DNA of 64,000 bases from the NCBI GenBank assembly GCA_902780505.1, contig CACZFN010000006.1, positions 101,557-165,556 on the forward strand. The letters run 5' to 3'. Shown here piece by piece: positions 35,090-60,345 of the stretch (positions are counted from its first letter, which is position 1; each line of letters opens with the position of its first letter). The notes beneath the pieces are model-generated. The model made no database searches. It was not told where the DNA came from and was given only the letters and a program-made list of their open reading frames with translations. The position numbers and the translations under genes were made by a program. The DNA comes from an uncultured Ruminococcus sp. GTDB lineage: Bacteria; Bacillota; Clostridia; Oscillospirales; Ruminococcaceae.

Positions 35090-35458
35090 ATGCTGTTTGA
35101 TTCAATTGACTTCAAGGCTATGGAATCGAGCCTTAATATGTTAAACGTTAAGCAACAGGTCATAACAAACAATTTAGCCAATATCGACACCCCGCATTAT
35201 AAAACGCAGGAGGTGCAGTTCCGTGACCTGCTTGACCGCGAATACGAAAGCGCCAGGCGCGGCGGCGATTATGCATTTGAAACATCCGTAATACAGACTG
35301 AGGATACATATTTCAATACAGACGGCAATAATGTCGACACGGATAAGGAATCGCTCGAACTGTATTCAGCATACTTACAGCAGTCATATATTATAGAAAA
35401 GATGAATATGACGATAAGCAATTACCAGTATGTAATGACGAACGCAAGCTTCAGATAA
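35090..35458 (+). CDS. flgB: Flagellar basal-body rod protein FlgB
   Basis: A 122-residue proximal rod protein exported through the flagellar gate. MESSLNMLNVKQQVITNNLANIDTP is the N-terminal rod-family signature (NNLANxxTP), and the C-terminal helix ends in MNMTISNYQYVMTNASFR. Normal length. GGGAGGAAAAGCCT precedes the ATG. First gene of the locus, followed by flgC after 14 bases. Confidence 0.94.
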   Translation: MLFDSIDFKAMESSLNMLNVKQQVITNNLANIDTPHYKTQEVQFRDLLDREYESARRGGDYAFETSVIQTEDTYFNTDGNNVDTDKESLELYSAYLQQSYIIEKMNMTISNYQYVMTNASFR

Positions 35459-53266: not shown

Positions 53267-53875
53267 ATGAAAAAAAGAATGATAATAGCAGCGTGTGCGG
53301 CGTGTGTCTGCATAGCATTTGCTGCGGGAATGATCGTCGATAGGCAGCGTGAGAAGAGGGCTATGGAAGAAGAGTATGACGGGGAAGATGATGAATACGT
53401 TGAGGTGATACCCGGGGTAAAAGAGGGAAATTACTACCTTGACGGAGACAGCACTTTGTCGCCCTACTATATCGAGCTTAAAGCAGATGAGGGCGGAAAC
53501 AGCGCAGGAAAGGCCTATCTTCATGGAGATACAGAGCAATTTATTGCCGACTGGAATTTAAAATATGCCCCCGACAAAACGCAGGAGGAAAGCTCCGGAG
53601 AGACAAATGCCCCTCAAAGGGGCGAGCCCGAGGAAGATAAAGCAGATGAGCTTACCTACTCTGAGCTCAAGGAAAAGCTCGGCGGAGAGCTTGAGTACTG
53701 GGTGGCTGTTATATATGAGAATGACGAAATGAAAGAAGAAAATATGGAGTGTTATTTTCATATAGGTACCATTCCGCCGGAGGGCTCCATAATACGCGAG
53801 ACAGACGTAACATGGAATTACATATCAGAGACTGAGTTTTCAAGATACGGCAAGACATTTAAGCTTGCGCAGTAA
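53267..53875 (+). CDS. Exported protein of unknown function between flhB and flhA
   Basis: A 202-residue protein with one N-terminal hydrophobic helix (MIIAACAACVCIAFAAGMIV), then a charged, mostly acidic exterior domain of about 175 residues (EYDGEDDEYVEVIPGVKEGNYY; ELKEKLGGELEYWVAVIYE; EGSIIRETDVTWNYISE). Probably anchored outside the membrane. AAAGGAGA precedes ATG 53267. It lies between flhB and flhA, where most Bacillota operons have no such gene. No family is recognised; codon usage looks like its neighbours. Confidence 0.7.
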   Translation: MKKRMIIAACAACVCIAFAAGMIVDRQREKRAMEEEYDGEDDEYVEVIPGVKEGNYYLDGDSTLSPYYIELKADEGGNSAGKAYLHGDTEQFIADWNLKYAPDKTQEESSGETNAPQRGEPEEDKADELTYSELKEKLGGELEYWVAVIYENDEMKEENMECYFHIGTIPPEGSIIRETDVTWNYISETEFSRYGKTFKLAQ

Positions 53876-56825: not shown

Positions 56826-57569
56826 ATGTTAAGAGGATACTACAGCGCGGCATCGGGAATGCTTGTGTCGCAGAGAAACCTGAATGTAATAGGACAGAAT
56901 ATAGTAAATTCCCAGACAGCAGGCTACAGGGCTCAGAGAGTCGTTCAGTCTACCTTTGACCAGGAACTTGTTACAAGATATGAAAACGGTGTCTATAACC
57001 GGATAGGTGACGCTTCTCAGACAAACCTTGTGGAAACTGTTGATACCATAGTAAACGAAGCATCAGTCTATGAAACGGAAAACCCGTATGATATGGCTAT
57101 CCTTTCTGATGGCTACTTCAATATAGCAGGTGCTGAGGGAAGGACTTTTATGACAAGAAACGGGAGCTTTTCCCTTGACGAGGAAGGCTACCTCCAGCTT
57201 GAAGGTGTAGGCAGGGTACAGGGTGAAAACGGCGATATATATGTCGGCGGCAATAATTTCAATATGGATCAGCTTGGCAATATATATGATATAAACGGCC
57301 AGTTTTCGGGCAGGCTTCTTATTACAAGACCTGCCGAGGGTTCACAGATACTTAAAATGAATAACGGCCTGTTCCTGACGGATAACGTAGAGCCTGTTGA
57401 AAACGCCGAAGTCATGAATTTCGGCTACGAGCGCTCAAATGTCGATATGAATGATGAGTATACAAGGCTTATGGAAGCTCAGGCGGCATTCAAGGCGTGC
57501 TCGACGGCACTTTCTACTATAAACCAGCTCAATATGAAATCCGCTTCGCAGATAGGGGCTATCTCTTAA
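56826..57569 (+). CDS. flgG: Flagellar basal-body rod protein, FlgG/FlgF family (FlhO-like)
   Basis: A 247-residue distal rod protein. MLRGYYSAASGMLVSQRNLN and GQNIVNSQTAGYRAQRV (family NNIAN...T.GY) open it; NFGYERSNVDMNDEYTRLME and ACSTALSTINQLNMKSASQI close it. It resembles B. subtilis FlhO more than FlgE. Ends in TAATG, sharing a base with the lipoprotein gene. Confidence 0.88.
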   Translation: MLRGYYSAASGMLVSQRNLNVIGQNIVNSQTAGYRAQRVVQSTFDQELVTRYENGVYNRIGDASQTNLVETVDTIVNEASVYETENPYDMAILSDGYFNIAGAEGRTFMTRNGSFSLDEEGYLQLEGVGRVQGENGDIYVGGNNFNMDQLGNIYDINGQFSGRLLITRPAEGSQILKMNNGLFLTDNVEPVENAEVMNFGYERSNVDMNDEYTRLMEAQAAFKACSTALSTINQLNMKSASQIGAIS

Positions 57570-58036
57570 TGATAAGGGCAATTATAACAGCGGCGGCAGC
57601 TGCGGTGATGCTTACCGCCTGCGGTGAGACAGACATCAGCACGGATAAAGATACCGCATCGGCAAGTACACCGACAACAACAACTGTAAAAGCAGAGAAA
57701 GAGCGTGCCTTGTTCATAATGGGCGAGAGCCGCGACGGTGACGTGATACTTGATGATACGAGCGTTGCTTCGGCGGAATTTGTAAGCTATAAGAATGAAG
57801 TGGGTGACGGCCCTTTTTACGGGGTGCTTATAACGCTTGATGATAAAGGCAGGGAAAGATTTGCCGGGGTGACAAGGAATAATATCGGCAAGAAAATATC
57901 CCTTTGGATAGGTGAGGAATGTGTCTTTTCACCGACTGTGGCTAATGAGATAACAGACGGCAAGGTCATGATAAACGAACTTTCCTATGAAAAAGCATAT
58001 GAAACAGCGAATATTCTGAACAGAGGAGGAAATTGA
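57569..58036 (+). CDS. Lipoprotein with SecD P1-head-like domain
   Basis: A 155-residue lipoprotein: signal peptide and lipobox MLTACG, Thr-rich linker to about 45, then an exterior domain with EVVLDD-type DVILDDTSVASAEFV, YGVLITLDDKGRERFAGVTR, NNIGKKISLWIGEECVFSP and TDGKVMINELSYEKAYETAN. This order matches the P1 periplasmic head of SecD (beta strand, KFA..T..N.GK, P.V...I.GG). Start shares one base with the upstream stop. It sits between two flgG-type genes, so a role in rod or hook export outside the membrane is possible but untested. Confidence 0.75.
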   Translation: MIRAIITAAAAAVMLTACGETDISTDKDTASASTPTTTTVKAEKERALFIMGESRDGDVILDDTSVASAEFVSYKNEVGDGPFYGVLITLDDKGRERFAGVTRNNIGKKISLWIGEECVFSPTVANEITDGKVMINELSYEKAYETANILNRGGN

Positions 58037-58786
58037 ATGAACATAGCATTTTATGTGGGCAGAAGCGGCATAATCGCCCACTCAAACAGCCTTAATATAT
58101 CGGCACAGAATGTGACAAATATAAGCTCATACGGCTATAAGGCCACAACTACGGATTTCCGTGAGCTTATCTATAACCAGATGGATCAGAATATAAATAA
58201 AGAACTTGACGAGCAGCATAAGATACTTAACGGTCACGGTGTCAAGGTGCAGTCAGATCCGCTTCAGTTTTCACAGGGGCAGTTCCAGATGACCGAGTAT
58301 GACCTCGATTTTGCCCTTGCAAGCGATAACTGCCTTTTCGCAGTTGACAGGCGCGGAACTGTACAGTATACAAGAAACGGCGCATTTGATGCCAGTGTCG
58401 AGGGGGATAATATCTATCTCGTTTCCTCTGACGGCGCTTATGTGCTCGATAACCAGAACCAGCGTATAGTTATCCCGACTGATGAACAGGGTAAGCTCGA
58501 TATCACCGCCCTTAAAGACAGGATAGGCGTGTTCTATTTTGAAAACCCCTATGCCCTTTTCCGCTATGACGGGCAGAGCTTCGCACCTACCGCCGAAAGC
58601 GGTCAGCCCCGTGTGGCACAGGACGGCGAGTATGACCTCCTCCAGGGCGCTATCGAGCGTTCAAACGTGAACCTTGCAAAGGAAATGTCTGATATAATCG
58701 TCACCCAGAAGGCGTATGCATTTTCCGCTAAGGTGGTGCAGACTGCCGACGAAGTCGAGGATATCGTCAATAACCTAAGACAGTAG
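58037..58786 (+). CDS. flgG: Flagellar basal-body rod protein, second FlgG family member
   Basis: A 249-residue distal rod protein. FYVGRSGIIAHSNSLNISAQ then NVTNISSYGYKATTTDFREL, DLDFALASDNCLFAVDRRGT, and at the end AIERSNVNLAKEMSDIIVTQ with KAYAFSAKVVQTADEVEDIV, a typical FlgG C-terminus. GAGGAGG before ATG, directly after the lipoprotein stop. It differs from the first in the loops and would stack at a different rod level. Confidence 0.88.
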   Translation: MNIAFYVGRSGIIAHSNSLNISAQNVTNISSYGYKATTTDFRELIYNQMDQNINKELDEQHKILNGHGVKVQSDPLQFSQGQFQMTEYDLDFALASDNCLFAVDRRGTVQYTRNGAFDASVEGDNIYLVSSDGAYVLDNQNQRIVIPTDEQGKLDITALKDRIGVFYFENPYALFRYDGQSFAPTAESGQPRVAQDGEYDLLQGAIERSNVNLAKEMSDIIVTQKAYAFSAKVVQTADEVEDIVNNLRQ

Positions 58787-58818: not shown

Positions 58819-58887
58819 GTCAGGGAAGATATGAAGCGACAGGTATTTACATCTATCATCTGACAGCACAAGGAAGTGAGAAAAGAA

Positions 58888-60345
58888 ATGGCTGATGTAA
58901 CAAGGGCGGCAACCCCTATAAATAACCGCAATATCATAACCCCTTCAAGGGAAAACAGAAATACAAACGAGATCCCCTTTGATTTTCAGGATACAAGTAA
59001 GGTAAAGCAGGCTACCCCTAACAGTGAAATGCAGTCGCAGGCAAATGTCCTGCGGCAGGACGGCTCAATGACAGGCTTCTATGAAGTCCTGCACGATCAG
59101 GAGGTAACATCAGCATTTCTTACAAATATCTTTCTTTTGAAGGAGATAGTTGATATCCTCCCCGCTAATAATGAAACACAGACACAGGAAATGCATGAAC
59201 TCCTTTCAAACCTGACGCTTTCTCCCGACGAGATATCGGGTGAGATGATGCGGCAGGAGGATATGTCTACAATGTTCAAGGGCGGCATATTCGATATGCT
59301 TCGCAATATGATACAGAAAAATATCGCCGAAAGCGGCGGCGATACCCAACAGGTGCGTGATTTTCAGGCAACAGTCGGCAATCTCCTGAAAGCACTCAAT
59401 AATTCCGCTTCAAAGGGCAATGTGTTTTCCTCTGTTATGAATAATCTAAGCTTTATCAGGAAACTTGTGGACGCTTCCCCCAAACTTTCAACAGGACTTG
59501 ATGCTTTGCTTGAAAAGTTCAGCCTTTTTAATTCGCAGACGCAGAACCTGCAAAATACTACAGGCTTTGATGCACAGTTCGCTGCCCTTAAAAGTGAAAC
59601 ACTCGACTTTTTTACACAGCTTGAAAAAAGTATCCTCTATAATGACGAAATAGCAAAATCAGTTTCTATGGCGACTTATAACCTTTCGAGGATAGCCCTT
59701 TCGGATGAAGGTATAACCGATAGCTTTTCACGCCTTCTGGGACTTATGGATAATGAGGAGGAAAAGGAAAACCTTACAAACCTCCTTCTGGGCTTCCTTG
59801 AACAGAATGACCATGTAAGCCAGTCAAAAACTATGAATGCTCTTACCGAGATACTCAGAAAACAGTCGGAAAACCCCGATCTTAAAATGCTCGGCTCCGA
59901 CAGTATGAATAAGATAATCCAAAGCCTTCTTTCCTCCCCCTGTAACTTTACACCGCTGCTGCACTATGTGATACCTGTGCAGTATGAAGACCTTTCCTCC
60001 TCCGCTGAAATGTGGATAAACCCCGATGGCGAGAACGACCTCCCCGGCGGCAGCGGAAGCGGCAGGAAGCTTACCCATATGCTGTTCGTTTTTGAAATAG
60101 CGGATATCGGTAAGTTTGAAACGGAAATGTGGGTTGAGGATAAGAATATAACCCTGAGTATCCTCTGCCCCGAACAGTATGCGGATTTCTATAAGGATAA
60201 AATAAAAAGTATCAGAGAAGATCTCAGCTTTTCTGATTATAAGTTCAAGGAGATAGGTGTTGATAAGCTTAAAGAGCCGCGTTCGCTTATCGAGGTGTTC
60301 AAGTCACTTCCTGAAAGGAGGACGGGTATAAATGTTGCAATCTAA
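58888..60345 (+). CDS. FliK-like (YlqG-type) flagellar protein
   Basis: A 485-residue soluble protein, mostly helical with Asn/Gln/Ser-rich stretches. The C-terminal region LTHMLFVFEIADIGKFETEM and KNITLSILCPEQYADFYKDK followed by IKSIREDLSFSDYKFKEIGV resembles the FliK C-terminal fold, as in the YlqG-type proteins that precede YlqH in Bacillota. ATG 58888 with AAGGAAGTGAG upstream. The next gene is an FlhB-tail homologue, the expected pair. Its substrate-switch role is inferred. Confidence 0.7.
   Translation: MADVTRAATPINNRNIITPSRENRNTNEIPFDFQDTSKVKQATPNSEMQSQANVLRQDGSMTGFYEVLHDQEVTSAFLTNIFLLKEIVDILPANNETQTQEMHELLSNLTLSPDEISGEMMRQEDMSTMFKGGIFDMLRNMIQKNIAESGGDTQQVRDFQATVGNLLKALNNSASKGNVFSSVMNNLSFIRKLVDASPKLSTGLDALLEKFSLFNSQTQNLQNTTGFDAQFAALKSETLDFFTQLEKSILYNDEIAKSVSMATYNLSRIALSDEGITDSFSRLLGLMDNEEEKENLTNLLLGFLEQNDHVSQSKTMNALTEILRKQSENPDLKMLGSDSMNKIIQSLLSSPCNFTPLLHYVIPVQYEDLSSSAEMWINPDGENDLPGGSGSGRKLTHMLFVFEIADIGKFETEMWVEDKNITLSILCPEQYADFYKDKIKSIREDLSFSDYKFKEIGVDKLKEPRSLIEVFKSLPERRTGINVAI

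Follow-up and report, generated by a model that had tools for sequence, protein, structure and literature searches.

Organization of the locus

The window, a 64,000-nucleotide stretch of DNA from an uncultured Ruminococcus sp., carries a flagellar gene cluster at about positions 35090–61269, which was recognized by eye from its open reading frames, with family models identifying the two rod genes only. Between these two rod genes lies a gene for a lipoprotein of 155 residues (Table 1). Its ATG shares one base with the stop codon of the flgF-type gene (TAATG), and its TGA directly adjoins the ATG of the flgG-type gene—the tight coupling on both sides that the initial annotation had described is thus seen in the sequence itself. 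The near-last codons, AGA GGA GGA, can moreover be read as a putative ribosome-binding site of the flgG-type gene. That annotation had called both flanking genes flgG-type. For the downstream gene, the best single-gene model is indeed FlgG, but for the upstream gene it is FlgF, and as neither reaches any FlgF or FlgG equivalog cut-off, the common label is loose.

The N-terminus of the product, MIRAIITAAAAAVMLTACGE, bears the proposed lipobox, which by inspection is found as LTAC at residues 15–18 and which would put the protein on the outer face. An S/T-rich linker follows up to about residue 45, and the C-terminus falls at about the C-terminal limit of a SecD head.

Table 1 Features of the lipoprotein gene and its flanks (positions of the window)
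Feature	Position	Strand	Basis
flgF-type rod gene, upstream	56826..57569	+	Family models
Head-only SecD-type lipoprotein gene, 155 aa	57569..58036 (including stop)	+	Open reading frame; PF22599 above cut-off; hhalign 98.4%
First copy of a short direct repeat (ATGATAA, at the start codon); corresponds to TGATAA at the relic junction	57569..57575	+	Sequence
Signal peptide with lipobox LTAC, Cys18	57569..57622	+	Translation; motif by inspection, lipidation predicted
SecD P1-head domain, residues 45–155	57701..58033	+	Profile matches, alignment, hhalign
Second ATGATAA, in frame (Met134-Ile-Asn); matching repeat	57968..57974	+	Sequence
AGAGGAGGA, near-last lipoprotein codons; putative ribosome-binding site of the flgG-type gene	58022..58030	+	Inferred from position
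flgG-type rod gene, downstream	58037..58786	+	Family models

A foreign composition of the gene was considered and rejected: its GC content of 46.4% is inside the range of the neighbor genes, and its GC3 of 44.9%, the lowest among seven genes compared (others 46.7–56.0), is yet close to theirs. Consensus scans gave three promoter-like sites versus 3.6 expected and five terminator-like sites versus 1.8 expected, two of the latter in the terminal part of flgF on the + strand.

Two further proteins of the cluster deserve mention. At 53267–53875 (+), between flhB-type and flhA-type genes, a protein of 202 residues with an N-terminal hydrophobic stretch is encoded; it belongs to no Pfam family and has no tblastn match in the loci of 15 relatives, 12 of which bear both flanking genes, making it a second insert of the operon seen only in this genome. 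The 489-residue protein at 58876–60345 (+), on the other side, is matched in 13 of the 15 relatives' flagellar loci—the two remaining ones, L045 and L053, being those whose fetched stretches end early—and is an unnamed conserved member of the cluster with no Pfam family over cut-off.

Relation to the SecD P1 head

The proposed likeness to the first exterior head of SecD holds over the whole domain. The Pfam family SecDF_P1_head (PF22599) matches residues 81–153 with an E-value of 9.2e-10 and 38.9 bits (cut-off 27), and hhalign against nine SecD heads, the window's own excluded, aligns residues 52–153 with a probability of 98.4% and an E-value of 6.5e-15. The genome's own SecDF is 34% identical over residues 47–153 (E 3.5e-13), and the SecDF of T. 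thermophilus (3aqo) matches with an E-value of 2.8e-5. Two single-sequence AlphaFold runs reached mean pLDDT values of only 34.1 and 42.7, too poor for use, and hence the head fold is predicted from sequence homology. A 30-row alignment including the window has 18 nearly invariant head columns, of which the window head, as read by eye, keeps 11 and lacks seven; a stretch near the end, ITDGK...SYE.A, is common to the window head and the SecDF of the genus.

Compared with the P1 head of SecD and SecDF (PF22599; T. thermophilus SecDF 3aqo, 3aqp), the likeness thus covers about residues 45–153, but the lipoprotein lacks the P1 base, the transmembrane domains, and the SecF part, and instead has a signal peptide with a lipobox. 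Accordingly, TIGR01129 (secD) is matched only in part, with residues 43–153 corresponding to model positions 109–224 of 397 and a score of 33.2 bits versus the cut-off of 244.4 for a full-length SecD, and PF02355, the membrane part SecD_SecF_C, has no Pfam match in the lipoprotein. A complete SecDF is encoded elsewhere in the genome by a frame of 787 residues with the head and both halves of the membrane part, and the three PF02355 matches of the genome are all on contigs other than that of the lipoprotein. This rejects a split or displaced SecD and makes the lipoprotein an extra, free head; the genome has three more matches, weaker ones with E 0.002 to 2.4, which fall on the N-terminal portion of the query and were not counted as heads. 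A free head with a predicted lipid anchor is a variant of a known domain, and no description of free SecD heads was found in the open-licence papers searched. In the excerpt of PMC9508474 considered here, the SecD P1 head is reported to be critical for translocation and is proposed to sit over the SecYEG exit.

The flgF–flgG junction in relatives

A search with the flgF-type protein returned 15 loci, of which 14 were used (L035–L048); L049 from Gemmataceae, with 30% identity, was left out as too distant. The fifteenth locus, L053, comes from the genus genome G005, and L035, L036, L037, and L038 are apparently contigs of the genus genomes G003, G002, G001, and G006. The seventh genus genome, G004, which is 58% complete, did not yield a match at E 1e-40.

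None of the 15 relatives' loci has an intact lipoprotein gene at the junction, and a single one has a relic of it. Within the genus, the locus was found in six genomes; one carries the gene intact, and a second one retains a relic left by an in-frame deletion. The initial annotation suggested checking whether the gene keeps its place between flg genes in relatives; it does not, and in this respect it is not a conserved component of the flagellar operon. In 11 of the 15 loci, flgF and flgG are separated by only about 12–25 bp. Elsewhere the gap is occupied differently: in L037 by a Fic-family gene (PF02661, 45.9 bits), and in L047 (5739–5877) and L048 (5739–5878) by 139–140 bp of non-coding, hairpin-rich DNA. 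By eye, the latter has end repeats (GGAAAC...GTTTCC) and resembles a miniature mobile element. The same part of the operon bears unrelated inserts in genus mates (L037:2479–3093, L036:2273–3681, L038:6526–7182)—the Fic gene in the gap of L037, a family-2 glycosyltransferase after flgG in L036, and a gene of about 220 residues and unknown kind after flgG in L036, L037, and L038.

The relic, a 65-bp segment in the gap of one genus mate (L035:5745–5809), is identical to the last 65 bases of the window gene at 54 positions; the best value in 1000 first-order Markov shuffles of the window gene was 36. It forms an open frame of 22 codons, whose GTG start overlaps the flgF stop and whose stop abuts flgG, and it ends with the same stop and a matching tail. 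Most likely, the gene was hence once present in the L035 lineage, where the head was lost and the coupling ends were kept. The relic junction is on TGATAA. In the window gene, ATGATAA stands at the start codon and again in frame 22 codons before the stop, and it is the part 3' of this second copy that corresponds to the relic; such a pair is what a deletion between short repeats would use. In a tree of flgF plus flgG DNA, the window branches off at the genus base with weak support (81/86), so that a gain of the gene in the genus ancestor is not certain.

Free SecD heads in other genomes

Free heads are not limited to this locus. Two overlapping samples were searched, one of 297 genomes of the family and one of 395 genomes of the order, and as only genomes with multiple matches were inspected, the counts of free heads are lower bounds. 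In the family sample, PF22599 matches occur in at least 225 genomes and occur more than once in at least nine, including the window's; each of these nine encodes one or more free heads in frames shorter than 300 residues, which makes at least 10 genes with that of the window. In the order sample, at least 203 genomes have matches and at least 10 have two or more. Seven of these had not already been seen, and three of the seven have a short free head, adding at least three genes. In every case a SecD-length frame lies no more than about 1.2 kb away on the contig, and one of the three heads is below the Pfam cut-off (21.3 bits). The other four genomes have a second long frame of 753–1042 residues instead.

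Of the 12 free heads that remain when the window's is set aside, seven fit a loose lipobox pattern, four more have a suitable cysteine by eye, and one (L109) has none. None of the 12 lies beside a flagellar-cluster homologue in the about 3 to 10 kb fetched around each (tblastn, E 1e-3; queries were the 31 others of the 32 window frames tried, two of them just past the cluster, and fast-evolving flagellar genes could escape such a search). Among the loci examined, a free head is hence found beside flagellar genes in this genus only, a pattern that the initial annotation had named as speaking against its proposal. Four of the 12 are adjacent to secD (G247, G338, G371, and G374), and one free SecD-head lipoprotein of the same family (L108:4342–4926) lies between two type II/IV secretion (T2SSE) ATPase genes. 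Of the same build is a head-only lipoprotein of 161 residues from another genus of the family (L106/L096, genome G306), located downstream of a glmU-type gene. It shares with the window's protein the lipobox-like cysteine, a short linker leading to a single head with a similar end point, and the overlap with the preceding gene, but it is 32% identical and belongs to a housekeeping locus, where no gene of the flagellar cluster has a homologue within the 10 kb fetched. Larger free heads (L104, L105, L107, L110–L112, L123, L125, and L129) likewise combine a lipobox-like cysteine with one SecD head; they differ by their length of 245–276 residues, an extra N-terminal region, which by eye is P1-base-like in some, and their other loci.

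Origin of the head

A tree of 89 heads, built on 122 columns, leaves 45 of its 86 inner branches open, but places the window head in a supported set of 12 rows (96) together with the SecDF of its own genus; three SecD proteins from related genera are also in this set, as are two further free heads. In a tree of 81 heads, the window pairs with the glmU-linked L096 at a support of 91, below the starred level. Its branch is long, with 2.69 changes per column versus 0.27 for the head of its own SecDF. In the 89-head tree, some free heads pair with the SecD of their own genome (L117–L123, 97; L092–L099, 96), and this points to repeated release. Descent of all free heads from one origin was nevertheless not rejected (p-AU 0.053; 81 of the 89 rows, the eight omitted including four free heads), and neither was one clade of the window, L096, and L097 (p-AU 0.722). 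The tree constrained to this clade is 21.85 log units better than that of the free search, so the quick trees are not optimal. With few columns, a long branch, and a quick search that missed a better tree, duplication and transfer are not resolved from each other.

Cargo of a mobile element was also considered and rejected: viral contigs confirmed 0 of 14 candidate stretches for the window protein and 0 of 50 for SecD heads. The one plasmid match is annotated as secDF. A phage collection gave five matches, and in the three records examined the head is within a SecD-length frame of 731–813 residues, so these are probably host DNA.

Possible roles of the lipoprotein

According to the initial annotation, the protein would have been recruited from the Sec system to help, on the outer face, with exporting or folding rod or hook subunits. 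Such a helper would fit the gene's place in the operon, translationally coupled to both neighbors, as well as the SecD head and the lipobox, and the head amid secretion ATPase genes in L108 shows that a surface machine is neighbor to a free head at least once more. However, rod and hook subunits exit via the flagellar type III exporter and are not known to use Sec. In addition, with no intact copy in any of the 15 relatives' loci, one relic, and 12 of 12 free heads elsewhere lacking a flagellar-cluster homologue in the stretch fetched, a conserved flagellar helper is rejected on gene order, and we regard the helper role as very unlikely. The relatives, as judged from their genes, keep the flagellar genes without the lipoprotein, which makes a flagellar role possible but not needed; as the coupled position is retained in this genome, it could be a species-specific one.

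Alternatively, the lipoprotein might modulate the cell's own SecDF or act as its decoy. Produced whenever the flagellar operon is expressed, the free head would compete with that of SecD at the exit of SecYEG or supplement it there. The whole-head similarity to this SecDF and the shared stretch near the end are in line with such competition, as is the importance for translocation reported in the excerpt of PMC9508474. The protein, on the other hand, has neither base nor membrane part, its branch is about ten times that of the head of this SecDF, and an intact copy is absent from the relatives examined, which renders a modulator unlikely. More doubtful still appears a decaying, functionless insert, kept only for the ends that carry the coupling and the ribosome site. 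The L035 relic retains just these ends, the window head has a long branch, and other unrelated inserts are found in the same gap; yet the frame of 155 codons is intact, signal peptide and lipobox are kept, and so are 11 of the 18 head columns that hardly vary.

We consider it probable, with moderate confidence, that the head-only SecD-derived lipoprotein is a lineage-specific passenger of the flagellar operon that would bind near the Sec exit. The close relatives examined lack the gene or have its ends only, which looks like such a passenger and not like a flagellar part. The SecD-head homology, the complete SecDF alongside, the intact gene with its relic, and the otherwise occupied gap all accord with this reading. 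A copy of a SecD head might have acquired a lipoprotein signal within this bacterial family, and the gene might have entered the flgF–flgG gap in or near the genus ancestor. It would then have become translationally coupled, with the TAATG start, the TGA directly followed by the ATG of flgG, and last codons doubling as the ribosome-binding site of flgG. In one species, deletion of the head would have left start and tail, perhaps for feeding translation into flgG. What the operon keeps appears to be the translational coupling into flgG and not the head. The lipoprotein itself would most likely be tethered on the outer membrane face and, close to the Sec exit, bind exported chains that are emerging or unfolded; a free head without base and membrane part would be unable to pull, but could hold on to chains as they emerge, or interfere with SecDF. 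Against a passenger stands the intact frame with its signal peptide and lipobox, which, along with the conserved head columns, likely reflects some constraint. The best reading of the sequence would be a fast-evolving, SecD-derived lipoprotein riding in the operon.

Wider meaning

A flagellar discovery is not supported by these data. On a more general level, the SecD head might have been repeatedly freed in this order as a surface lipoprotein with a motor-free activity of its own, set by machines that need help with exported chains. The neighbors can be cited for such a repeated release—flagellar rod genes here, type II/IV secretion ATPases once, and secD in four cases—but we think this generalization rather improbable. 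Free SecD heads would, in any case, make it possible to ask directly if exported chains are bound by the moving head of the Sec motor in isolation. The locus itself is a natural example of a gene that was set into a conserved operon, became coupled, and was deleted in a relative with its coupling ends surviving.
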